NCBI GenBank assembly: GCA_013204985.1
Contig: JABMLG010000002.1
Span: 682,001-746,000 of the forward strand
DNA: 64,000 nt
Reading direction: 5' to 3'
DNA from: Microbacteriaceae bacterium VKM Ac-2855
GTDB taxonomy: Bacteria > Actinomycetota > Actinomycetes > Actinomycetales > Microbacteriaceae
Part shown: piece by piece, positions 48,573 to 60,721 of the stretch
Numbering within the stretch: position 1 is the stretch's first letter
Layout: every line of letters begins with the position of its first letter
Notes under the pieces: model-generated
What the model saw: the letters and a program-made list of their open reading frames with translations, nothing else
Told to the model about the DNA's origin: nothing
Databases searched by the model: none
Position numbers and translations under genes: made by a program

Positions 48573-50006
48573 ATGGCTGCACGCGAACTGCGCAACTTCG
48601 TCGGCGGAACGTACGTCGACTCGCGCTCGACGGAACGGCTCGACATCGTCGATCCGGCGACCGAGGCGGTGTACGCCACCACCCCGGTCTCCACCGACGA
48701 GGACGTGGCCGAGGCGTACGCCGCGGCCGCCGGAGCTTTCGAGGAGTGGGGCGAATCGACGCCCTCCGAGCGGCAGCTGGCCCTGTTCCGCATCGCGGAT
48801 GCGATGGAGGCCCGCGCCGAGGAGTTCGCCGACGTGGAGTCGCAGGACACGGGGAAGCCGCGCGGCTCCTTGGTCGCGGACGAGATCCTCGTCTCGGTTG
48901 ATCAGATTCGCTTCTTCGCCGGCGCCGCGCGCATTCTGGACGGTCGCGCGGCCGGGGAGTACATGAAGGACCACACGTCGTTCGTGCGCCGCGAGCCGAT
49001 CGGAGTGATCGGTCAGGTCACGCCGTGGAACTATCCGTTGAACATGGCGACCTGGAAGTTCGCCCCCGCGATCGCGGCGGGCAACACCATCGTGCTGAAG
49101 CCCTCCGACACGACGCCGTCTTCGACGCTCCTGCTGGCCGAGGTCGCCGCGGAATTCCTTCCGGCCGGAGTGCTGAACGTCGTCACCGGCAATCGCGAGA
49201 CCGGTCGGGCGATGATCGAGAACCGCACCCCGCAGATGGTCTCGATCACCGGGTCCGTGCGGGCGGGTATGGAGGTCGCCAAGTCGGCCGCGTCCGACCT
49301 CAAGAGGGTCCACCTCGAACTGGGCGGCAAGGCGCCGGTGATCGTCTTCGACGACGCCGACATCGAGTCGGCCGTCGAGGGGATCGTCGCCGCGGGCTAC
49401 TTCAACGCCGGTCAGGACTGCACCGCCGCCACTCGCCTGCTGGTGCAGGAGGGGATCCACGACGAGTTCGTGCAGGCGCTCGCCGCTTACGCGAAGGACA
49501 ACGCGAGAACCGGCACGCCGGACCGCGACGACATCCTTTTCGGACCGGTCAACAACGTGAATCAGCTCGCTCAGGTCTCCGGATTCGTCGATCGGCTGCC
49601 CGCGCACGCCTCCGTCGATCTCGGTGGACATCGCGTGGGCGACACCGGGTACTTCTATGAGGCGACGATCGTCTCGGGTCTCCTGCAGACCGATGAGGCC
49701 GTGCAGAACGAGATCTTCGGCCCGGTGATCACGGTGCAGAAGTTCAGCGATGAGGCCGAGGCTCTGCGTTGGGCGAACGACGTGCAGTACGGTCTGTCCT
49801 CCTCCGTCTGGACGAAGGACCACGGCCGCGCGATGCGCTTCGCGAAGCGTCTCGACTTCGGCTGCGTGTGGATCAACACGCACATCCCGCTCGTCGCGGA
49901 GATGCCGCACGGCGGGTTCAAGCACTCGGGCTACGGCAAGGACCTGTCGATGTACGGCTTCGAGGACTACACCCGCATCAAGCACGTCATGAGCTACATC
50001 GGCTGA
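48573..50006 (+). CDS. Gamma-aminobutyraldehyde dehydrogenase-like
   Basis: This 477-residue NAD(P)-dependent aldehyde dehydrogenase has '[36 protein letters not shown]', the general-base Glu in '[16 protein letters not shown]', the catalytic Cys in '[11 protein letters not shown]', and '[12 protein letters not shown]'. Similarity to PatD/PuuC-type enzymes, together with the divergent oxidase and aminotransferase, suggests oxidation of 4-aminobutanal to GABA in putrescine breakdown. Confidence 0.88.
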
Positions 50007-50114
50007 TCCGCAGTCTCTCCGGGCCCGGTCGAGCGCCCGGCGGAGACGATACGATCGTGGAGGTTCTTCTCGTCCGCGCGAGGACGGGCCGTGGAACCGA
50101 CTCGAGGAGCAGCG

Positions 50115-50942
50115 ATGACGCAGATCGGTCGTAGCCGTTCCTCCTTCACCGTCCCCGTTCCTGGCGGCGGAACTCCCGGATCGGCGAATCAGACGATCGT
50201 CACGCTCGGCTGGGCCGGACGAACCGACACCGGCCGCGTCCGCGCTGCGAACGAGGACAGCTATCTGGCGCGCTCGCCGATCTTCGCCGTCGCGGATGGA
50301 ATGGGCGGGCACGCAGCGGGCGGTTTCGCGAGTTCGACGGTCGTCACCCGGCTTGCCGAGGCGGTGGGATCCGCGATCGTCACACCGGAGGACATCGATC
50401 GATCACTGCGCGCCGCCGTGGCCGACATCGAGCGGGGCATCGAGGGCAGCGATCGCAGCACCGGCACGACGGTGACGGGCGCCGCGTTGACCGTGCTCGG
50501 CGGGGAGGCGTACTGGGCCGTCTTCAACATCGGCGACTCACGGGTCTACCTCTACGCCGCCGGCCGGCTGACGCAGCTGACCATCGATCATTCCGTGGTG
50601 CAGGAACTCGTCGACGCCGGGATGATCTCGCGTGACGAGGCGGAATCGCATCCGCACAGCAACGTGATCACCCGCGCGGTCGGCTTCAACGACGTGCCCG
50701 TGCCCGACTACCGATTGATCCCGGTCCTCGCCCAGTCCCGCCTGTTGATCTGTTCGGACGGGCTCACGAAAGAGGTGACGGATACGACCATCGCCGGCAT
50801 TCTCGCCGACGGCGAGTCGGCTGAGAGCGCTGCGTCCGCGCTGCTCGCTGCGGCGCTCGATCACGGCGGCCGCGACAACGTGACCGCCATCGTGGTGGAT
50901 GTGCTGTCGATCGTCGGGGCGGACGTCGTCGCGTCCATCTGA
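50115..50942 (+). CDS. PP2C-family Ser/Thr protein phosphatase
   Basis: This 275-residue metal-dependent phosphatase has 'GRVRAANEDSYLARSPIFAVADGMGGHAAGG' with the metal-binding Asp/Gly residues, 'GTTVTGAALTVL', 'FNIGDSRVYLY', 'LLICSDGLTKEV' and 'HGGRDNVTAIVVDV'. The ATG at 50115 has GAGGAGC before it; the upstream GTG at 50091 would place the ribosome site inside the gene. It is followed by genes for an FHA protein and an FtsK-like ATPase, a grouping of phospho-threonine signalling with a motor protein. No kinase gene is present in the window. Confidence 0.92.
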   Translation: MTQIGRSRSSFTVPVPGGGTPGSANQTIVTLGWAGRTDTGRVRAANEDSYLARSPIFAVADGMGGHAAGGFASSTVVTRLAEAVGSAIVTPEDIDRSLRAAVADIERGIEGSDRSTGTTVTGAALTVLGGEAYWAVFNIGDSRVYLYAAGRLTQLTIDHSVVQELVDAGMISRDEAESHPHSNVITRAVGFNDVPVPDYRLIPVLAQSRLLICSDGLTKEVTDTTIAGILADGESAESAASALLAAALDHGGRDNVTAIVVDVLSIVGADVVASI

Positions 50943-50989
50943 CGGGATCCGGGCACCGGTACGATAACGATCGGAAAGGGTCGGATTCC

Positions 50990-51565
50990 GTGATCTGCAG
51001 TGTGTGCGGCTCTGCGCTCGAGCAGGGAGCGATCCTGTGCGGTGAGTGTGGTGCCCCGGTTTCCGGGCAATCCGCGGCGGGTTATCACGCCGGTGCTGCC
51101 GTCGGCGACACGACGGTGCTGGATCCGATGCAGCGAGCGTGGTTGCCAGGGCTCTCGACGGGGCGGCACCGCCGGTCCGCCACCGGCGCGGAGCCGGACC
51201 GAACCCCGACGAGCGGCTTTATGCGCCTGAGTTTTCGTAGCGGTGAGCACGCGATCGTTACGGGTGCGGGCTTGATCGGCCGTCAGCCGTTGCCGGATGC
51301 GGGTGAGTCGTTCCGCCACCTGTTGGCCATCGCGGATCCGAGCCGGTCGATGTCGAAGACGCATCTCGAGTTCGGGTTCGATACCGACGGTCTCTGGATC
51401 CGCGACCGCTGGTCCTCCAATGGCACGACTTTGCTCGGTCCGGGGCAGCCGGAGCTGCCTCTCGAGGCGGGTCGGCGTTATCGCGCGGGTGCGGGCAGCG
51501 TCGTCCGCCTCTCGACCGTGGAGATGCTCGTCGAGAAGGCCGTCGCCTCCTCCACAGGGGTGTGA
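50990..51565 (+). CDS. Zinc-ribbon + FHA domain protein (intact copy)
   Basis: This 191-residue protein has a CxxC...CxxC zinc ribbon (residues 3-6 and about 16-19) at the N-terminus and an FHA phosphothreonine-binding domain at about residues 85-175 ('GLIGRQPLP...SRSMSKTHLEFGFDTDGLWIRDRWSSNGTTL'). The FHA Arg, Ser and Asn ligands are in these motifs. The GTG at 50990 follows an AAAGGG site. The last 539 bases belong to a direct repeat duplicated 4913 bases downstream. The gene itself is complete in this copy, so the downstream insertion did not break it. Confidence 0.88.
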   Translation: MICSVCGSALEQGAILCGECGAPVSGQSAAGYHAGAAVGDTTVLDPMQRAWLPGLSTGRHRRSATGAEPDRTPTSGFMRLSFRSGEHAIVTGAGLIGRQPLPDAGESFRHLLAIADPSRSMSKTHLEFGFDTDGLWIRDRWSSNGTTLLGPGQPELPLEAGRRYRAGAGSVVRLSTVEMLVEKAVASSTGV

Positions 51566-51896
51566 GCGGCGTCGGTTCGCCCGGGTGAGGCCGCCGCGCC
51601 TCTCCTCGGCAGCGATGCCGTGATGCGCTTAGCGGATGATCCCTCTCGAATCGACTCCGGCGGCGGCGCCGCGCATCCGGATCCCGTCCCGACCGGAACC
51701 GGGCAGGCGACCCGGTTTCCCGTTGCTCGCCTCGGTCACCCCCGTGCTGGCCGCCGGTGTGATCTGGGCGATCACGAAGTCGCCGTACGTTCTCGCGTTC
51801 GCTGCACTCGGTCCGGTGATCGCCATCGCCGGTTATCTGGACGGCTTGCGCACACGCCGACGCGACGCGCGCCGTGCCGAGGGAGCCCACAACGAG
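51027..51896 (+). repeat. Long direct repeat, left copy (870 bp)
   Basis: Identical over 861 bases (51027-51887) to 55940-56800, then one mismatch (51888 C versus 56801 T) and 8 more matching bases. It spans most of the FHA gene, the intergenic gap and the first 261 bases of ftsK. The repeat distance is 4913 bases. Near-perfect identity implies a recent event or gene conversion. Confidence 0.95.
51636..51896 (+). pseudogene. Truncated 5' end of the FtsK-like gene (left copy)
   Basis: The first 87 codons of the ATPase gene are present: the proline-rich start, two membrane segments ('FPLLASVTPVLAAGVIWAI' and 'YVLAFAALGPVIAIAGYL') and the basic stretch after them. At 51897 the match to the full copy ends. 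The frame continues for 48 foreign codons to a stop at 52041-52043, so a 135-residue chimeric membrane peptide could be made, but the motor domains are gone. Confidence 0.85.
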
Positions 51897-52043
51897 CTGA
51901 ATGGAAAAGATGTCGATCAGATTCGTTCGTACGCCGGTTCTATCACGAAGAACGAGCGCTTCAACCGGCCCAATGTTCGTTGGGAATTCTGGCTGGTCGG
52001 GCACACTGATCATGACCACGTGGTGGATAACGTGAGCAGGTGA
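51897..52043 (+). pseudogene. 3' remnant of a probable GHKL/Hsp90-like ATPase gene
   Basis: The 48 codons after the break read 'ELNGKDVDQIRSYAGSITKNERF' and 'RWEFWLVG', ending at a stop. The pattern (K-x-[DE]-[IV]-x-Q-I-x-x-Y, N-x-R-F, W-x-F-x-[IVL]-[VI]-[GS]) is one I associate with the C-terminal part of large Hsp90/histidine-kinase-like ATPase proteins often found in defence islands. It has no start of its own and is fused in frame to the truncated FtsK segment. It probably marks the former neighbourhood of the epipeptide cluster. Confidence 0.4.
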
Positions 52044-52574
52044 ATGCTCCAAACGGGGTTGTCTTTCTGGCGATCACAGGGATGCAGCTGGCACGACCGC
52101 ATCCAGACCAGCCGTAGAGGTGGATGATTGTCGTGACCTGTTCTGGCGCTTCTTGTCGAACCACTGGATCCGCAATTCGGATGGTGACACCCCAGCGATG
52201 CGGCTTGTCCGCCTCGCCGCCTGCTTCCAATTGCACCTCTGAATTCTCGGAAGAGGTGTCCTGGGTCGACCCAAGAATGTCTAATACGTGTGCATCGATA
52301 AGGTCGAGCTTGTACCCCGGCCAGTCGTCCGAACGACCGACACAAATCCGCTTCCTCCGCGCCGGATGTCGTCCAGCATGTGATGGAGGCCACAGATTGA
52401 GGCCTGCCGCTTCGCGCCGTAACGGGCTATCTGCGTCCGGTGCCGTCCGATCTGCGCCAACGTCGCGCCTGGTGACCATTCTTCAGTTGCAGGTACGGGG
52501 TGCTAGCTGAAATACTCTCACCTAAGCGCTCCCGTCCGTGTAAGGCCGACGCCCTTGGAGAGGAGGTGGGACTA
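52044..52574. other. Island segment without a clear gene, leader of the epipeptide operon
   Basis: About 530 bases follow the gene remnant. A leftward open frame (52479 to 51961, 172 codons) crosses it, but I recognise no domain and no good ribosome site, and its end runs into the remnant. I treat the region as decayed DNA plus the operon promoter. The last 90 bases hold candidate promoter elements. Confidence 0.4.
52487..52516 (+). promoter_or_regulatory. Candidate promoter of the epipeptide operon
   Basis: TTGCAG (52487-52492) and AATACT (52511-52516) are separated by 18 bases and lie 58 bases before the precursor start. They match the consensus at 3 and 4 of 6 positions, so the call is weak. 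It is the best pair in the upstream region. Confidence 0.3.
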
Positions 52575-52709
52575 ATGGCAATTACGACCGCATCGCGCAG
52601 CATGCTCGAGAGCTTCGTTATCGACGAGGAGGTTGCAGACCTGGCCGTCGTCGACGACATGTGGTACTTCATCGTCAGCGAGCACGGTGGATGGATCATG
52701 GGCAGCTAG
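52575..52709 (+). CDS. epeX: Epipeptide (YydF/EpeX-type) RiPP precursor peptide
   Basis: This is a 44-residue peptide with a strong AGGAGG site (52561-52566) 8 bases before its ATG. Its end, DMWYFIVSEHGGWIMGS, aligns without gaps to the B. subtilis YydF end DLWYFVKSKENRWILGS; the last two YydF residues (GH) are missing here. The two residues that YydG epimerises in YydF (Val36 and Ile44, from published work as I recall it) correspond to Ile33 and Ile41, eight residues apart in both. Residues 1-29 form the acidic leader. By analogy the EpeP protease would cut before Trp30 to leave a 15-residue peptide active on the Gram-positive cell envelope. The modification and cleavage are inferred; the homology is clear by eye. 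Confidence 0.92.
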   Translation: MAITTASRSMLESFVIDEEVADLAVVDDMWYFIVSEHGGWIMGS

Positions 52710-52725
52710 CCGCGTGGTGATCTAA

Positions 52726-52739
52726 CCCGATTCGTCGGG
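52726..52739 (+). terminator. Small UUCG hairpin between epeX and epeE
   Basis: CCCGA-TTCG-TCGGG forms a 5-base stem with a stable TTCG tetraloop 16 bases after the precursor stop and 42 bases before epeE. It has no T run. It may act as a partial terminator or mRNA-stability element that keeps precursor transcripts above enzyme transcripts, a common arrangement in RiPP operons. Confidence 0.45.
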
Positions 52740-52781
52740 CGGGGGCGCTCCCAAGACGTCAATCTTAAGTGGAGACTTATC

Positions 52782-53744
52782 GTGGTACATGCTCAACAGA
52801 GCGTCGGCATCAATTTCGACGCCAAATGCAATATGCGGTGCGCGCACTGCTGTGTGAGTAGCTCACCGGATGCATCCGCCAATCTCAATGACGAGTTGGT
52901 CGATCACATCCTGGACGACCTGTTCCAGAACCCAGAGGTGCGAGAAATCGGCCTGACGGGGGGCGAGCCATTGATTCGCAAGGCGCGCACCCTGGAAGTA
53001 ATGAAGCGAATCACGGACACCGGACGGGCCGTTACATGCGTCTCGAATGGCTTCTGGGCTGTCACTCGCAAGGCTGCAGATCGGGTCTTTGCGGAACTTG
53101 AAGCAGCGGGCCTTCGCAAACTCACGATCAGCTACGATGATTTTCACGCTCCCTACATCAAGCCGCAGCGCATCAAGAATCTCCTTGAAGCGTCTCGTGA
53201 ATCGAATATTCACGTGATTCTGAACATGTGTGTGAGCCGTAGTAATAACTCGAATGCCCTTCTCGAAGCTCTGGGTGACAGTATCCTCGGAATTCAAGTG
53301 ACGAAATTCCCGGCCGTTCCGGCGGGTGAAGCCAGGAAGTTTGACGAGTCAGAGTTCCAGCGTCGCCCCATTACTGAAAAGATGCTCCGCTGCCCTGGGC
53401 TTCAGGTCATCTACCACAACGACGGCAAGGTGTACCCGTGCTGCTCGCCCGCGATCTTCGACACGAACATGACCTTGGGTGATGTCGGAGCTGAGCCGTA
53501 CAAGAAGACGGTCGAGAAGATTCGCCGCAATGCGCTGCTGGGCATCATGCAGCGTGAAGGCTTCCAGTGGTTCATCGACGCCATCCGCGAGGTGAACCCG
53601 TCTGCGCCTGCCGCCACGGTGACCGAGGTGGTGTCGGCCTGTGAGTTGTGTTCGGTCATCTTCCTCGATGAAGAGTCGATCGCGCTCATTCAGCCCAAGG
53701 TGCTGGCTTATTTCCAGGCGCTCATCCCGTCGCATGCCAGCTGA
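52782..53744 (+). CDS. epeE: Radical SAM peptide epimerase (YydG/EpeE family)
   Basis: This 320-residue radical SAM enzyme has the cluster-binding C16-x3-C20-x2-C23 in 'FDAKCNMRCAHCC', the SAM-binding T-G-G-E-P (59-63) and a C-terminal SPASM-like cysteine set: C204, the pair C220-C221 in 'VYPCCSPAIF', and C287-x2-C290. In YydG, Cys223 gives the hydrogen atom that completes L-to-D inversion; C220 or C221 is the likely counterpart. The length equals YydG (about 319). The GTG at 52782 has GGAG 7 bases before it. It should convert L-Ile33 and L-Ile41 of the neighbouring precursor to D-allo-Ile. Genes for a protease and ABC transporter follow in the yyd order. Confidence 0.92.
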   Translation: MVHAQQSVGINFDAKCNMRCAHCCVSSSPDASANLNDELVDHILDDLFQNPEVREIGLTGGEPLIRKARTLEVMKRITDTGRAVTCVSNGFWAVTRKAADRVFAELEAAGLRKLTISYDDFHAPYIKPQRIKNLLEASRESNIHVILNMCVSRSNNSNALLEALGDSILGIQVTKFPAVPAGEARKFDESEFQRRPITEKMLRCPGLQVIYHNDGKVYPCCSPAIFDTNMTLGDVGAEPYKKTVEKIRRNALLGIMQREGFQWFIDAIREVNPSAPAATVTEVVSACELCSVIFLDEESIALIQPKVLAYFQALIPSHAS

Positions 53745-54498
53745 ATGGTCCTACAGCGATAACGACTGCGAGGTGCTGCTCGTGGGCGGCACAGCCACGG
53801 TGCTCGACCGTGAACGCAACCGGTACTACCAGACGACGGTAGCGAAGCTTCCGGTTGAGATCCGCGAGGCGGTGACTCCGAGAATCTCACGGGTGTCTCC
53901 GAGAGCAGCCGTAACGTTTGTCGTGGTAGTGCTGGCGCTCCTCCTGGGCAACTTGGCGTTCTCGCTTGCGAACGGTACGGAGCGGCCCTCCGGGTGGCTT
54001 GTAGCCGTCTTGGCCGTGTATCTTCCGGTCAGCGTCGTCATCCACGAGACGGCACATGCGCTCGCGCTGCGTGCGATGGGGCGGTCGATCGACAAGGTTG
54101 GGGTCAAGCTCAACTATTGGGTCTTTCCCGCGTTCTACGTGCGGATAAATCAATCGTTGCTGCTCAATCGCAACGAGAAGGTCATCGTCCATGGGGCAGG
54201 CGTGTGTATCAACTTGGCCATCAACCTGGTGCTTTTTGCCTGTAACGCATTTGTCTTTCATTGGGCCGACCTTGAAGTTGCCTTGCAGTTCGTCGTCCTG
54301 ACGCTCGCGATCAACGCGATCCCAGCGTTGAAATCCGATGGATATCGCATGCTGCTTGCGCTGGCCGGCGTCGACGAATTGCGGGGCCTGCTCCAAAATC
54401 CATGTTGGGTGGTCGCAATTAAGGTCGTGAGTACCGCATATGTCCTGTGTTACAGCATTTATATGGTTTCGAGTTTGGTGATGAGGTTTATCGCGTGA
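53734..54498 (+). CDS. epeP: M50-family membrane metalloprotease (YydH/EpeP)
   Basis: This 254-residue protein has about five hydrophobic helices and the zinc site H104-E-T-A-H108 in 'VSVVIHETAHALALRAMG', with a second conserved acidic residue in 'NAIPALKSDGYRMLLAL' (Asp202), the site-2-protease arrangement. The N-terminal 60 residues are soluble. It probably removes the leader from the epimerised precursor within or at the membrane. The ATG at 53734 overlaps epeE by 11 bases; longer in-frame starts lie wholly inside epeE. Its end overlaps epeA (GTGA). Confidence 0.87.
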   Translation: MPAEWSYSDNDCEVLLVGGTATVLDRERNRYYQTTVAKLPVEIREAVTPRISRVSPRAAVTFVVVVLALLLGNLAFSLANGTERPSGWLVAVLAVYLPVSVVIHETAHALALRAMGRSIDKVGVKLNYWVFPAFYVRINQSLLLNRNEKVIVHGAGVCINLAINLVLFACNAFVFHWADLEVALQFVVLTLAINAIPALKSDGYRMLLALAGVDELRGLLQNPCWVVAIKVVSTAYVLCYSIYMVSSLVMRFIA

Positions 54499-55181
54499 CA
54501 AATGCACTCGAATGCACCGACCTAACGGTCAAGTTTGGACGCAAGGTCGCCCTCGACCATCTGAGCGTGGCGCTCGAAGACCGGGGCAACGTCGTCGGTC
54601 TCTTCGGACAGAACGGGGCAGGCAAGAGCACGCTTATGCGCGTTGTCTGCGGACTGATCGGTCGATATACGGGCTCGATGCAGCGACCGAGCGGTGCCGT
54701 CGCCTACCTTCCGGATACCTCGTTCCTGTATGGGTTCCTGCGGCTCGATCAGTGCATCCAGACCGCAGCGGCATTGTTCGATGATTTTGACGTGGACATC
54801 GCAGGCGACATCTTCCAGGAACTCGGCTTGCCGCTTTCGACGAAGGTGAGCGAAACGTCCAGGGGGATGGGTGAGCAGATCCATCTCGGTCTCATCCTGG
54901 CGCGGCGCTGCAATTTGTATGTTTTTGACGAACCACTCGCGGCAGTTGATCCGTATACACGTGACAAGCTGATTGCGCTCATTCGCCAGTGCCGCATGCC
55001 TGGTTCGACGGCGATCATCAGCACCCACCTCATCAACGGGCTGGAAGAGCTGTTTGATGAAGCGGTCGTGATTCAGGATGGTCGTCTTGTGCTGCATGAG
55101 GATGTGGCGGATATCACCGCGTTTGGCGGACTTGAACTGCGAGTGAAGGGGGTGATTCGCGCTGATGTTATGGGTCGTTGA
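54495..55181 (+). CDS. epeA: ABC transporter ATPase (YydI/EpeA)
   Basis: This 228-residue ATPase has the Walker A GQNGAGKST at 38-46, a degenerate signature 'SRGMGEQIHLGLIL', and Walker B 'LYVFDEPLAAVDP' with the catalytic Glu. Altered signatures of this kind are common in small bacteriocin-immunity ABC ATPases. The start is the GTG at 54495 that overlaps the epeP stop; a longer in-frame start lies inside epeP and adds unrelated residues. With EpeB it probably expels the mature epipeptide or protects the producer from it. Confidence 0.9.
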   Translation: MTNALECTDLTVKFGRKVALDHLSVALEDRGNVVGLFGQNGAGKSTLMRVVCGLIGRYTGSMQRPSGAVAYLPDTSFLYGFLRLDQCIQTAAALFDDFDVDIAGDIFQELGLPLSTKVSETSRGMGEQIHLGLILARRCNLYVFDEPLAAVDPYTRDKLIALIRQCRMPGSTAIISTHLINGLEELFDEAVVIQDGRLVLHEDVADITAFGGLELRVKGVIRADVMGR

Positions 55182-55920
55182 ATTCAGGAAGCATCTGCCG
55201 ATATTTGCGGCCATTTACGCGGTGACCATCGTGACTGGGGCGGCAGCGCTTCTGTTTCCTGATGTAGTGGTGCTCGGCGTGATCCAGGCGCTTGGGGGGT
55301 TGCTGTGTTGGAGTGCGGCGGTCATCTACGCCGCAAGCGTCATCTTGCGGTACCTCTCACTTGGGCGCGACTTGCTGCTACAGATCGGCACGGTCAGCCG
55401 CTGGCGGATCGTGTGGATGAAGGCCGCAGTGCTCGGTGCGTACCTGTTTGGGCTGCACGTCGTCTCGCTGGCGTTCCTCTTCAAGAAGACGAGCGATGCG
55501 GCCGGAGACCAGTTCGGATCGGTTCTGGCCTACCTGATCGGAGGTAAACTGCTCTCCATCGCGGTCTTCCTCGTGGCTGTCGTACTCGTGGCGACCCTGG
55601 TCAAAATGCTCCGGACTAAGGCCGCAGTGGTGACCGGCTTCAGCGTGCTGGTCGTTGCGGTCGTAATTGGTCAAGCGATTCTGCTCTGGCAGACCGGTGC
55701 TCCCGACACGGCTCACTTCTTCATCGGGGTTGGTGGCGATTTCTTCACCGTGAACTTGTACGCCAATATTTTGCCGATCATCCTGACTGATGCGAGTGCA
55801 GGTTTTCTGCCGAATATCTGGGTGACATCCGTGCTTCTGAACACTGCCCTCGCTGCGATGTATTTCCTGATCTGGGCCGTGGTCACGCGGGTCTCACGAG
55901 TCAACTTCCTGAGCCTCTAG
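55165..55920 (+). CDS. epeB: ABC transporter permease (YydJ/EpeB)
   Basis: This 251-residue hydrophobic protein has about six transmembrane helices and no other recognisable domain, the pattern and size of YydJ (about 240). It overlaps epeA by 17 bases and is the last gene of the operon; only 19 bases separate its stop from the right direct repeat. No terminator was seen, apart from a 5-base CTCTG/CAGAG stem at 55930-55942 that straddles the junction, so transcription may continue toward ftsK. Confidence 0.85.
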   Translation: MLWVVEFRKHLPIFAAIYAVTIVTGAAALLFPDVVVLGVIQALGGLLCWSAAVIYAASVILRYLSLGRDLLLQIGTVSRWRIVWMKAAVLGAYLFGLHVVSLAFLFKKTSDAAGDQFGSVLAYLIGGKLLSIAVFLVAVVLVATLVKMLRTKAAVVTGFSVLVVAVVIGQAILLWQTGAPDTAHFFIGVGGDFFTVNLYANILPIILTDASAGFLPNIWVTSVLLNTALAAMYFLIWAVVTRVSRVNFLSL

Positions 55921-55939
55921 CCGATGAATCTCTGAAACA

Positions 55940-56478
55940 GAGCGATCCTGTGCGGTGAGTGTGGTGCCCCGGTTTCCGGGCAATCCGCGGCGGGTTATCA
56001 CGCCGGTGCTGCCGTCGGCGACACGACGGTGCTGGATCCGATGCAGCGAGCGTGGTTGCCAGGGCTCTCGACGGGGCGGCACCGCCGGTCCGCCACCGGC
56101 GCGGAGCCGGACCGAACCCCGACGAGCGGCTTTATGCGCCTGAGTTTTCGTAGCGGTGAGCACGCGATCGTTACGGGTGCGGGCTTGATCGGCCGTCAGC
56201 CGTTGCCGGATGCGGGTGAGTCGTTCCGCCACCTGTTGGCCATCGCGGATCCGAGCCGGTCGATGTCGAAGACGCATCTCGAGTTCGGGTTCGATACCGA
56301 CGGTCTCTGGATCCGCGACCGCTGGTCCTCCAATGGCACGACTTTGCTCGGTCCGGGGCAGCCGGAGCTGCCTCTCGAGGCGGGTCGGCGTTATCGCGCG
56401 GGTGCGGGCAGCGTCGTCCGCCTCTCGACCGTGGAGATGCTCGTCGAGAAGGCCGTCGCCTCCTCCACAGGGGTGTGA
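55940..56478 (+). pseudogene. 5'-truncated FHA gene (right copy)
   Basis: It lacks the first 12 codons and the start. In-frame TAG (55918) and TGA (55933) stand just upstream. The FHA domain itself is complete, and an internal GTG at 56029 could give a 149-residue protein without the zinc ribbon. Whether this is translated is unknown; it may only carry the promoter-less spacer before ftsK. Confidence 0.8.
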
Positions 56479-56809
56479 GCGGCGTCGGTTCGCCCGGGTG
56501 AGGCCGCCGCGCCTCTCCTCGGCAGCGATGCCGTGATGCGCTTAGCGGATGATCCCTCTCGAATCGACTCCGGCGGCGGCGCCGCGCATCCGGATCCCGT
56601 CCCGACCGGAACCGGGCAGGCGACCCGGTTTCCCGTTGCTCGCCTCGGTCACCCCCGTGCTGGCCGCCGGTGTGATCTGGGCGATCACGAAGTCGCCGTA
56701 CGTTCTCGCGTTCGCTGCACTCGGTCCGGTGATCGCCATCGCCGGTTATCTGGACGGCTTGCGCACACGCCGACGCGACGCGCGCCGTGCCGAGGGAGCC
56801 TACAACGAG
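55940..56809 (+). repeat. Long direct repeat, right copy (870 bp)
   Basis: This is the second copy of 51027-51896, offset by 4913 bases. It begins abruptly at codon 13 of the FHA gene and continues into the intact ftsK gene, where the host sequence goes on past 56809 without a break. This copy therefore borders native DNA on its right side, and the left copy borders native DNA on its left. Confidence 0.95.
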
Positions 56810-59299
56810 GCGCGTCGTGTCCTCGCCGAGCGGATCGACGTCGAACACGGGCGCGAGCGTCGAGCCGCGTTCGGCTCGACCCCCGACACCGCTCTGATCC
56901 TCAGCGGAAGCGCAGAAGCCGACACTCGGTGGCGCAGCCAGCCGTCGACGGCGACGCTGGTGCTCGGCCACGGTCCGATCCCCAGCAGGCTCCAGGTGGA
57001 CGGCGACGACGTGGATCCGCTCGCCGTCGCCGCACGGACCCTGCACGATGCGCCGATCACGGCGCCCCTGGCCGGCGGTATCGGCGTCCACGGCGAAGCA
57101 CCGCTCGTCCGCGCGTATCTGCGAGGTCTGATCGTTCAGGCCGCTCACGCGATCGCCCCCGGCTCGATCCGGATCGATGGTCCGGCCGACGGCGAATGGT
57201 CGTGGTCGCGCCGCTTGCCGCATCGAGGCGATGCGGTGGTGCGCGTTGTCGACGGCTTCACGGAGACGTCGGTCGAATCCGCCGGGGCCGTCGCAGTACT
57301 CGCCATGGCGCGCTCGGCCGAGGAGTTGCCGTCCGCCTGCGCCTGCATCGTGCGCATCGACACCGCTCGGCGAGCAGTGGTACTGGGCCGCCGGCGCCGG
57401 GGAGCGTGGGAGGAGATCGTGCCGTCGTTCGCGTCGGAGACGGAGGCGAGCCTCTTCGCGCTGGATGCCGCTGCGTCCGCGCCTGCTGCGGAGGATTCCC
57501 TTCCCGGCGCGGTATCGCTCCGCAGCATGCTGTCGAGCCGTCGAGGCCCGCACGTCACCGGCCTCCCCGCGGCGATCGGGGTGGACACGAACGGCCCAAT
57601 CGTGGTCGACCTGGTCGCCGACGGGCCGCACGCGATCGTCGGCGGTACAACCGGAAGCGGCAAGAGCGAACTGCTGACGACCTGGGTGCTTGCACTCGCC
57701 GCCGCGTTCTCGCCCGCGCGTGTCAACTTCCTGCTCGCCGACTTCAAAGGTGGAGCCACGTTCGCCGGACTCGAATCGCTGCCGCACTGTGTCGGCACGA
57801 TCACGGATCTGGACCCGATCGAGGCCGACCGCGCATTCGAGAGCCTTTCGGCGGAGTTGCGTCGGCGCGAAAGGATTCTGGCCGAGATGGGTGCGAAGGA
57901 CGTCTCCACGGCCGGGGCGGATGCGCCGGCCCGGCTCGTCGTGATGGTCGACGAATGCGCCTTCCTTCTCGACCAGGCGCCGCAGCTGCACAGGCTCTTC
58001 GCGGATATTGCCGCGCGCGGACGGTCCTTGGGCGTGCACCTCGTCCTGTGCACGCAGCGACCGGCCGGCGTGGTGCGAGACGCGGTCGCCGCCAACTGCG
58101 GCCTCCGGATGTCCCTCCGTGTCCACGACGTCGGCGACTCACGGCTCGTGGTGGGCACCGACGCTGCGGCCCGGCTGCCGCACGATCGACCCGGCAGACT
58201 CATCGTTGCGCGTGGCGGACGCCAGACGCTGGTGCAGACGGCCTTGGCCACGCCGAACGACCTCGACGCCGTCATCTCGGACACCGATCGCCGCATTTCG
58301 GTGCATCGGCCCTGGCTCGATCCGCTGCCCGCCCGCATCGAACTGCCCGAAGCGAGCCGATCCGGCGCGCTGTGCGACGCGCTGCTGGGTGTGGTGGACC
58401 GACCGCAACTCCAGTCTCAGGACGTCCTCCGACTCGGATCCGGCCATCTGCTGGTGATCGGCGCCGGCGGCACGGGGAAGTCGTCGGCACTGGAGATCCT
58501 GCGGGCGCAGGTGCCGACCGACCTCATCCGGTGCAGTGCGGCAGAGCCCGAAGGGGCGTGGGACGCGGTGACGCGGGGTATGCCCACCGGATCCGTCCTG
58601 CTGATCGATGACCTCGACCTCCTGCTGCGACGCTATCCGGCCGAGATGCAGCGCCTGTTCCTCGAAGCGCTCGCGACGCTGTTGCGCTCGGCGTCCGAGA
58701 CCGGGCTGGCGGTGGTGGCGACGGCACAGAGATTGGGGGATGGACTCTCCGCGTTGATGCCGCTCTTCGGCCGTTGCCTGGCGCTCCGGCTGTCATCCCG
58801 GCAGGAGCACCAATTGCTCGGAGTCGACGCGCCGTTCGAGGCGCGACTTCCACCCGGTGCGGGGTGGTGGGGCGGCGAACGCCTCCAGCTCTTCGCGCCG
58901 GCGCGCATCGATCGGGCGGATGCGGCACCCTCGCGCACGGCACGCCGGAAGCTTTCCAGCATCGACCGCGGCAGCGGGCCTCTCGCGATCGTGTCATCGC
59001 GGCCGAGGGTGACCCGCGACCTCGTTCGGTCCGTCGGCTGGACGCCCAGCGAGCTGCCGACGATCCGCGGCGCGCTGCCGCCCGATGCCACCGAGGTGCT
59101 GCTCGGTTCCGTCGAGGACTGGCAGATGCACCGCTCCGCTTTCGAACGCATCCGGCTCGACGGCGTGCTCTTGCTCGATGCGCTCTCCTCGGCCGAGATC
59201 CGCGTGCTCCTCGGACCGCGCGTCACGGCTCCGTACTGCGCGGGTCCGACCCTGCTACTGCTGCACGACGGCGAACTCGAACGGCTCGATGCCGCGTGA
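56549..59299 (+). CDS. FtsK/SpoIIIE-family (EccC-like) membrane ATPase
   Basis: This 916-residue protein has two N-terminal membrane helices (about residues 28-68) and then two tandem motor domains. Domain 1 has Walker A GGTTGSGKSE (365-374), 'VNFLLADFKGGATFAGLESLPHCVGTITDL' and Walker B 'LVVMVDECAFLL' with 'GVHLVLCTQRP'. Domain 2 has Walker A GAGGTGKSS (about 638-646) and 'SVLLIDDLDLLLRR'. This is the EccC/FtsK-SpoIIIE layout of type VII secretion rather than a DNA translocase: there is no gamma domain. No EsxA/WXG100 or other Ecc gene was seen in the window. The first 261 bases lie in the right direct repeat. Its native upstream promoter is now 5 kb away, so expression may depend on read-through from the epipeptide operon. 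Confidence 0.88.
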   Translation: MIPLESTPAAAPRIRIPSRPEPGRRPGFPLLASVTPVLAAGVIWAITKSPYVLAFAALGPVIAIAGYLDGLRTRRRDARRAEGAYNEARRVLAERIDVEHGRERRAAFGSTPDTALILSGSAEADTRWRSQPSTATLVLGHGPIPSRLQVDGDDVDPLAVAARTLHDAPITAPLAGGIGVHGEAPLVRAYLRGLIVQAAHAIAPGSIRIDGPADGEWSWSRRLPHRGDAVVRVVDGFTETSVESAGAVAVLAMARSAEELPSACACIVRIDTARRAVVLGRRRRGAWEEIVPSFASETEASLFALDAAASAPAAEDSLPGAVSLRSMLSSRRGPHVTGLPAAIGVDTNGPIVVDLVADGPHAIVGGTTGSGKSELLTTWVLALAAAFSPARVNFLLADFKGGATFAGLESLPHCVGTITDLDPIEADRAFESLSAELRRRERILAEMGAKDVSTAGADAPARLVVMVDECAFLLDQAPQLHRLFADIAARGRSLGVHLVLCTQRPAGVVRDAVAANCGLRMSLRVHDVGDSRLVVGTDAAARLPHDRPGRLIVARGGRQTLVQTALATPNDLDAVISDTDRRISVHRPWLDPLPARIELPEASRSGALCDALLGVVDRPQLQSQDVLRLGSGHLLVIGAGGTGKSSALEILRAQVPTDLIRCSAAEPEGAWDAVTRGMPTGSVLLIDDLDLLLRRYPAEMQRLFLEALATLLRSASETGLAVVATAQRLGDGLSALMPLFGRCLALRLSSRQEHQLLGVDAPFEARLPPGAGWWGGERLQLFAPARIDRADAAPSRTARRKLSSIDRGSGPLAIVSSRPRVTRDLVRSVGWTPSELPTIRGALPPDATEVLLGSVEDWQMHRSAFERIRLDGVLLLDALSSAEIRVLLGPRVTAPYCAGPTLLLLHDGELERLDAA

Positions 59300-59480
59300 G
59301 GCGCACCCGCGACAGAATCCGCAGCTTTCGCCGCCGAGCGGTACTGAATTCGTGAAGATCATGTTTCGAGATGGGCGATCTGCCCCGTTTTCCATCGACA
59401 GAGCTCCGAGCCTGTGTCAGGATTCAGGAAAATCCGACGGCACTCCCGGAGACGGGACGACGCATTCAGGAGTCGCAGGC

Positions 59481-60721
59481 ATGACCCGACCCGAACCGAG
59501 GGACCCCCGTCTCCGCCAAGCGATCGCGCTCGCCCGCAACGGCGCAGGCACCGTTCGCGGGGGAGGCCGTGCCGGAATGCTCTCGCGCCGAGCCGTCCTC
59601 GGCGGACTCGGGCTCGGCGTCGGCGCGTTGGCGCTCGCCGCGTGTGCCCCCGCGTCACGGCCGGCGCCGACCGCGGCCGCCGATGCGTCCGCGTCAGACC
59701 GCCGACTGGTGTGGGACAACTGGCCCGCTTACCTGGACGAGGACGACGACGGTGCGTACCCGACTCTGATGGCGTTCGAAGAGGCGACCGGAATCGCGGT
59801 CAGCTACAACGTCGCGGTCGACGACAACAACTCGTACTACGGCAAGGTCAAGGACCAGCTGGCGCTCGGCCAGTACCCCGGCTCCGACACCGTCTGCCTG
59901 ACCGAGTGGATGGTGTCGCGCCTCGTGCGCCGCGGTTACGTGCAAGAGCTCGACCACGCGAACATCCCGAACCTCGCCAATCTCACGGCCTCACTGGCGA
60001 ACCCTGACTTCGATCCCGGCCGGCATCTCTCGCTGCCGTGGCAGGCCGGTTTCGCCGGGATCGTGTGGAACAAGGAGAAGCTTCCCAACGGGCTGGCGAG
60101 TGTCGAGGACCTCTGGGATCCGGCGCTGCGCGGTCGCGTCGGCGTGCTCAGCGAGATGCGCGACACGATCGGCATCATCATGCAGGCGCAGGGCACCGAC
60201 ATCGCCGGTGCCTGGGGCGATGACGAATTCATGAATGCCATCGACGTGTTCCGTGAGCAGGTGGACGCCGGGCAGATCCGGAACATCAAGGGCAACGCCT
60301 ACCTCAACGACCTCCAGAACGAGGACACCCTCGCCGCGATCGCCTGGTCGGGCGACATCACCCTGATCAATGCCGAGGCCGGTGACAAGTGGGAGTTCGT
60401 GCTGCCGGACTCCGGCGGAACCCTGTGGAACGACACGTTCGTGGTGCCGATGGGCTCACCGCGCAAGGCCAACGCAGAAGCGTTGATGAACTACTACTAC
60501 GAACCGGAGGTCGCCGCGGAAGTGGCCGCCTGGGTCAACTACATCACCCCTGTCGACGGAGCGAAGGAAGCCATGGAGAACATCGATCCCGAGCTGGCGG
60601 AGAATCAGCTCATCTTCCCGAATGAGGAGACACTGTCGAAGGCGCACGTCTTCCGCACCCTCTCCGCTCAGGAGGAGAAGGACTACCAGGCCGAGTTCCA
60701 GAAAGTGCTGTTGGGCATCTG

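Follow-up and report, generated by a model that had tools for sequence, protein, structure and literature searches.

Gene content and layout

The window analysed here is a stretch of 64,000 nucleotides from Microbacteriaceae bacterium VKM Ac-2855 (contig JABMLG010000002.1, positions 682,001 to 746,000 of the forward strand), and the system in question is a cluster of five genes with the same gene order as the epeXEPAB (yydFGHIJ) locus of Bacillus subtilis and its relatives. We consider it very probable that these genes form an intact operon, of an actinobacterial sub-type and acquired horizontally, for an epipeptide, a ribosomally synthesised and post-translationally modified peptide (RiPP). 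Epipeptides damage membranes, carry two D-amino acids and have been described chiefly from Bacillus and related bacteria. The original prediction had placed such a cluster at 52575..55920, and its coordinates and gene order were correct; all five open reading frames (ORFs) are intact and lie on the plus strand.

52575..52709, plus strand: epeX-like precursor, 44 amino acids, ATG start; TIGR04077 at E 2e-7, below the cut-off
52782..53744, plus strand: epeE-like radical S-adenosylmethionine (SAM) peptide epimerase, 320 amino acids, GTG start; TIGR04078 at 332 bits; CNMRCAHC motif and auxiliary-cluster cysteines
53734..54498, plus strand: epeP-like M50 membrane metalloprotease (HETAH), 254 amino acids; NF058609 at 186 bits, below the cut-off
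54495..55181, plus strand: ATP-binding cassette (ABC) ATPase in the epeA position, actinobacterial type, 228 amino acids, GTG start; no YydI equivalog
55165..55920, plus strand: ABC permease in the epeB position, actinobacterial type, 251 amino acids; no YydJ equivalog

The genes are tightly packed, with the ATG of the protease overlapping the epeE stop, the GTG of the ATPase overlapping the epeP stop, and the permease overlapping the ATPase. A strong ribosome-binding site, GAGGAGG, stands ahead of the epeX ATG. For epeP we chose the ATG at 53734 as the start; the longest frame opens at 53641.

Epimerase, protease and precursor

Window EpeE scores 332.2 bits against TIGR04078, the YydG equivalog, which passes the cut-off of 300. 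Its best match in the PDB comes from structures of B. subtilis YydG (8ai1, E 1e-74), and it is 38% identical to the enzyme of Bacillus sp. N13C7. In an alignment, all nine cysteines of a Bacillus EpeE (L055 in our numbering of loci) have a counterpart in the window enzyme, at residues 16, 20, 23, 24, 204, 220, 221, 287 and 290. Cys221 corresponds to Bacillus Cys223, which is proposed as the hydrogen-atom donor in PMC8326336. The protease has a HETAH motif, five hydrophobic segments and 32% identity to a Bacillus EpeP, and it matches NF058609 at E 1e-54 (185.9 bits) over 7-244 of 255 residues. All 11 actinobacterial EpeP proteins match this model at E 0.001, the best of them at 186 bits against a cut-off of 225.

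The precursor matches TIGR04077 at E 2.2e-7. A core pattern built from known precursors occurred once in the six frames of the window and not at all in 200 codon-shuffled copies. Both the Bacillus and the window cores have W-Y-F, a branched residue, W-I and G-S, and they diverge where IVSEHGG in the window replaces VKSKENR of YydF; relative to YydF the leader is three residues shorter and the product two. The last 17 residues had been said to align with Bacillus YydF, and they do so without gaps, except that YydF extends two residues further (GH). The counterpart of the 17-residue YydF product is therefore 15 residues here, and the predicted product, WYFIVSEHGGWIMGS, comprises the last 15 residues of the 44-residue precursor. 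It contains no Cys, no Thr and two Ser. In the gapless core alignment Ile33 and Ile41 fall on Val36 and Ile44 of YydF, the residues that are epimerised according to PMC8326336. In the other aligned precursors the first of these places is taken by V, I, L or M and the second by I, V or L.

For the window we considered, and rejected, a conserved RNA hairpin in the interval from epeX to epeE (z 0.64). The Cellulomonas hominis locus (L054, 6936-7000) has a strong hairpin between the same two genes (z -3.8), which is absent from the window and from Curtobacterium.

The ABC transporter genes

The locus had been called a complete epeXEPAB cluster, which is only partly right, because the ATPase and the permease do not pass NCBI's equivalog models of EpeA (YydI) and EpeB (YydJ) and have no sequence orthology to the Bacillus genes; the precursor, epimerase and protease are conserved. 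The best NCBIfam match of the window ATPase is PmtA, at 91 bits, and NF058610 (YydI/EpeA, cut-off 240) does not appear among its best 25 NCBIfam matches, while Bacillus halotolerans EpeA scores 331 bits against that model. For the permease there was no NCBIfam match at E 0.1, NF058605 (YydJ/EpeB) included, and an hhalign comparison of 11 actinobacterial with 7 Firmicutes permeases returned a probability of 0.1%. The permease probably has a type-V exporter fold. The pair also recalls PmtAB and PmtCD of Staphylococcus and the lantibiotic-protection exporters, but this is resemblance only, since the scores lie far under the curated cut-offs (350 and 310 bits). Compared with Bacillus epeXEPAB, then, the window has a different ATPase and permease pair with no detectable sequence orthology, and a precursor and protease that miss the NCBI cut-offs.

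Relatives in other Actinobacteria

The EpeE alignment was scanned against GTDB genome contigs, and the best 80 of 335 relatives were kept. These include at least ten more named loci from Actinobacteria in which E, P and A follow the window order: two from Curtobacterium and one each from Boudabousia marimammalium, Cellulomonas hominis, Cellulosimicrobium cellulans, Bifidobacterium bohemicum, Bifidobacteriaceae UBA2724, an Arcanobacterium metagenome-assembled genome, Actinomyces israelii and A. timonensis. The window-type ATPase is common to these ten loci, alongside precursor, epimerase and protease. The B position is filled by a sequence match in eight of the ten and by an ORF alone in the two Actinomyces (245 and 266 amino acids). 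Precursors were found in all ten, by eye or by pattern; that of Boudabousia has no ATG, and its start would be TTG. An epipeptide-type locus with a diverged core in an actinobacterium was thus borne out, with precursor homologues next to other EpeE-type enzymes at 10/10 of the named actinobacterial loci. The further claim of a new producer lineage has to be widened, given the ten or more further loci.

In the EpeE tree, which omits the Gemella locus L071 (its EpeE frame is split), the window enzyme groups with other EpeE apart from five more distant radical SAM enzymes, with support of 91/93, below the 95 mark. Its sisters are the two Curtobacterium enzymes (99/96), followed by Boudabousia (100/99). 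Actinobacteria and Firmicutes are separated by a single weak branch (59/39), and a recent transfer from Bacillus is therefore not indicated. The closest relatives, Curtobacterium sp. MCPF17_052 (L049) and Leaf183 (L050), share 70% and 67% with the window in EpeE, 49% and 39% in EpeP, 64% and 55% in the ATPase, and 47% each in the permease, and they occupy insertion sites other than that of the window. The leader pattern MLxSFxxDxxVAxLxVVDDxWYF is common to the window and L049. The Curtobacterium cores have AVIVG in place of GWIMG and have lost the second Trp, and the Actinomyces and Arcanobacterium cores have two residues fewer ahead of the second Trp.

EpeE at E 1e-40 or better was present in 5 of 396 genomes drawn from the window's order, its own included, and only its own genome passed the TIGR04078 cut-off, both in this draw and among the 15 genomes of its genus. 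In the order to which Streptococcus sciuri belongs, 2 of 395 genomes, S. sciuri included, had EpeE at E 1e-60. The enzymes of Cellulomonas hominis and Boudabousia score 299 and 287 bits against the cut-off of 300, and the actinobacterial group may have drawn little notice because such scores, among them that of the best EpeP, lie at or below NCBI naming cut-offs.

Two of the five loci in the order draw (L033 and L034, genomes G109 and G095) have diverged EpeE-like and protease genes (34% and 37%) and no credible precursor; they possibly represent a neighbouring RiPP class. In Gemella cuniculi (L071, 3226-6375) the epe operon is decayed, with the EpeE and EpeP frames in pieces and ATPase and permease frames that look whole.

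Insertion at the FHA/FtsK site

The operon is an insertion, very probably acquired horizontally, at a host site between an FHA gene and an FtsK-like gene. It is bracketed by a perfect direct repeat:

51027..51887, no strand: left copy of the 861-bp perfect direct repeat, comprising the 3' part of the FHA gene and the start of the FtsK-like gene
51888..55939, no strand: unique inserted segment, 4,052 bp, G+C 57.6% (window 66.3%)
51888..52043, plus strand: truncated C-terminal piece of a foreign gene, forming the left end of the insert; relatives of this gene on plasmids carry the annotation 'ATP-binding protein'
55940..56800, no strand: right copy of the 861-bp perfect direct repeat, continuing into the intact FtsK-like gene

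Neither host gene is broken by the insertion, because the FHA gene (50990-51565) is whole on the left and the FtsK-like ATPase gene (56549-59299) is whole on the right. The empty site was seen at 11/11 congener loci examined, with FHA followed by FtsK within about 90-200 bp; the remaining three of 14 congeners gave partial FtsK matches only. The gene piece at the left end is 53% identical over 43 amino acids to a 662-codon frame in genome G419, and the right end lies 19 bp past the permease. Since it starts inside a truncated gene and stops just behind the permease, the insert looks like a cut piece of donor DNA. A separate 4.9-kb circle merged into the chromosome by the assembly would give an identical picture.

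No transposase or recombinase was recognised among the insert frames checked (the five epe genes and two upstream frames, not every frame). An ordinary insertion sequence was rejected, as Pfam found no transposase in these frames and no inverted repeat of at least 40 bp occurs in 50000-60000. A phage origin was likewise rejected: 50,697 phage records yielded nothing at E 1e-10, and viral contigs gave four weak, partial matches. Recombination between the 861-bp copies would restore the FHA-FtsK locus exactly. At 51636-52043 the start of FtsK is fused in frame to the foreign ATP-binding protein tail, giving a chimeric frame of 135 codons. The FHA and FtsK-like genes, adjacent in congeners, are separated here by the insertion, and a polar effect is possible.

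Proposed function and alternative explanations

By analogy with the Bacillus system, from which the D-residues, the cleavage site, export or immunity and the activity are all carried over, we suggest the following pathway. The ribosome would make the 44-residue precursor, from which the radical SAM enzyme would take the C-alpha hydrogens of Ile33 and Ile41, leaving each in the D configuration. Cleavage ahead of Trp30 by the M50 membrane protease would give the 15-residue peptide, the ABC pair may serve either peptide export or producer protection, and the peptide would probably perturb the membranes of competing Gram-positive bacteria. Judged by sequence, the epimerase passes the NCBI threshold for membership, the precursor and the protease are clear homologues that score under theirs, and the A-B pair falls outside the YydI and YydJ families.

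Several findings weigh against this assignment. The precursor and the protease score under their NCBI cut-offs (30.7 versus 35 bits and 186 versus 225 bits, respectively), and TIGR04077 at E 0.1 matched 11 of the 14 precursors scanned (11 actinobacterial and 3 Firmicutes) and missed 3. Val36 of YydF is Ile in the window precursor. The ATPase and permease are, by their sequences, an actinobacterial exporter type without orthology to EpeA and EpeB, and therefore the Bacillus immunity data do not transfer. Finally, a simple scan of 51800-56100 gave no match to a sigma-70-type promoter, where 1.6 would be expected by chance.

This promoter result leads to a conceivable, if unlikely, alternative, namely that the operon is a silent cassette, intact because it arrived recently, with no working promoter and nothing made. 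The perfect 861-bp flanks around the insertion are in keeping with such an arrival, as is the presence of an EpeE above the cut-off in just one of the 15 genomes of the genus, the window's own. However, five intact frames and the strong ribosome-binding site ahead of epeX speak for a working operon, and recombination between the repeats should easily remove a useless cassette, yet it persists. An epipeptide operon also seems to us a better description than a related but distinct RiPP class, in which the actinobacterial enzyme would make another modification or another number of epimers. The cores do vary strongly (Val for the second Trp in Curtobacterium, and the shortened cores of Actinomyces and Arcanobacterium) and the exporter differs, but the enzyme exceeds the equivalog cut-off and keeps the proposed hydrogen-donor cysteine, and a thioether is impossible in the window core because it lacks Cys; we regard such a class as improbable. 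It is very improbable, in our view, that the product acts as a signal to the producer's kin and not as an antimicrobial. TIGR04077 bears the short name 'expor_sig', which hints at signalling, whereas the Bacillus product inhibits Gram-positive bacteria and affects membranes, according to PMC8326336 and the title of PMC7026026.

The eleven actinobacterial loci, the window included, offer natural core variants, with the second Trp lost or the core shortened, that are useful for learning the substrate tolerance of EpeE. The different exporter raises the question of whether immunity is tied to the peptide or exchangeable within the family. Popp is reported to have described the locus in 2021 as restricted to Firmicutes. 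Epipeptide producers are discussed as Firmicutes in PMC7614699, PMC12871923 and PMC8326336, and no actinobacterial epipeptide was found in the titles or abstracts of the literature searched, in which coverage of subscription journals was limited.

Direct repeats around other epe loci

The repeat-flanked insertion provides a testable idea for the spread of a five-gene operon with no recognised recombinase. Both flanks of 26 epe loci, the window included, were surveyed for repeats of at least 100 bp and at least 70% identity. Left out were L062 (on too short a contig), L072-L078 (where the enzyme has no recognised protease gene beside it; L074 on a 3.9-kb contig), L031, L032 and L047 (the same or nearly the same loci as L054, L051 and L075), and L033 and L034, which were not counted as epipeptide loci. 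Direct repeats were found at 11 of the 26 and inverted repeats at none, a bias with sign-test values of 0.001 for loci (11:0), 0.004 for lineages (9:0) and 0.06 for the five close lineages. Of 16 lanthipeptide regions from the same order 14 were used; they gave two direct and no inverted repeats, both copies lying more than 2 kb from the gene in those two, and non-epe radical SAM loci (37 of 51 with enough flank; repeats of at least 80 bp) gave none of either kind.

Close bracketing was seen at 7/26 loci from five lineages (the window, L049, L051, L052, L053, L070 and L075), and the five inserts that were measured span 3.6-4.8 kb. The identity of the repeat differs by lineage: FHA/FtsK, an NrtR gene, the tail of a large carbohydrate-binding-domain gene, the opening part of a gene beside AraC-like sequence, and a recombinase gene. 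By Fisher's test the close brackets are in excess (7/26 versus 0/51, p 3e-4; 5/22 lineages, p 2e-3), the 22 lineages being our own grouping, with three Paenibacillus counted as one and three Bacillus as one. In Paenibacillus L070 the two copies are 97.2% alike, compared with 90-94% to the copies of the other two species, a pattern that recombination between the repeats would be expected to leave.

We suggest, speculatively, that the epe operon may move without a recombinase of its own. Host direct repeats would recombine and free a circle of about 4-5 kb with one host arm, which would enter any cell with the same host gene by a single crossover there, duplicating the arm and leaving the gene unbroken; loss of the operon would mean loss of immunity and so enforce its retention. 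We hold this scheme to be rather unlikely, and several points count against the repeat idea. The controls were not species-matched, some flanks were shorter (down to 2.2 kb), and the thresholds were fixed after a first look at the data. Against the lanthipeptides alone the excess is not significant, whether for all repeats (11/26 versus 2/14, p 0.09), close brackets (7/26 versus 0/14, p 0.07) or lineages (9/22 versus 2/14, p 0.14). The match at L067 is weak (71-73%) with a distant downstream copy, the upstream copies at L057, L064 and L071 lie 2.7-3.4 kb from EpeE, and the repeats of Macrococcus (L047/L075, Macrococcoides caseolyticum) are themselves recombinase genes. Between L052 and L053 the left copies agree to 96.9%, as closely as the within-genome pairs do, and these two loci give no clear pattern of the L070 type. 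We regard the flanking direct repeats as a real lead and not as proof of a mechanism. Were the scheme true, and taken with the exporter difference, epipeptides would amount to an X-E-P module that is both mobile and addictive.

The Curtobacterium locus L049 may have arisen differently from the window, given that similarity to its four close relatives (NrtR protein 95-96%) stops within about 26 bases of the NrtR stop and that the 4.5 kb right of the operon had no match in the relatives' 20-kb stretches. Its epe operon lies 222 bp behind the NrtR gene, and the NrtR stop in Curtobacterium may be an insertion hotspot. From 6575 onward L049 and its relatives (L210-L213) diverge right after this stop, and a degenerate second NrtR 3' end lies behind the epe operon.

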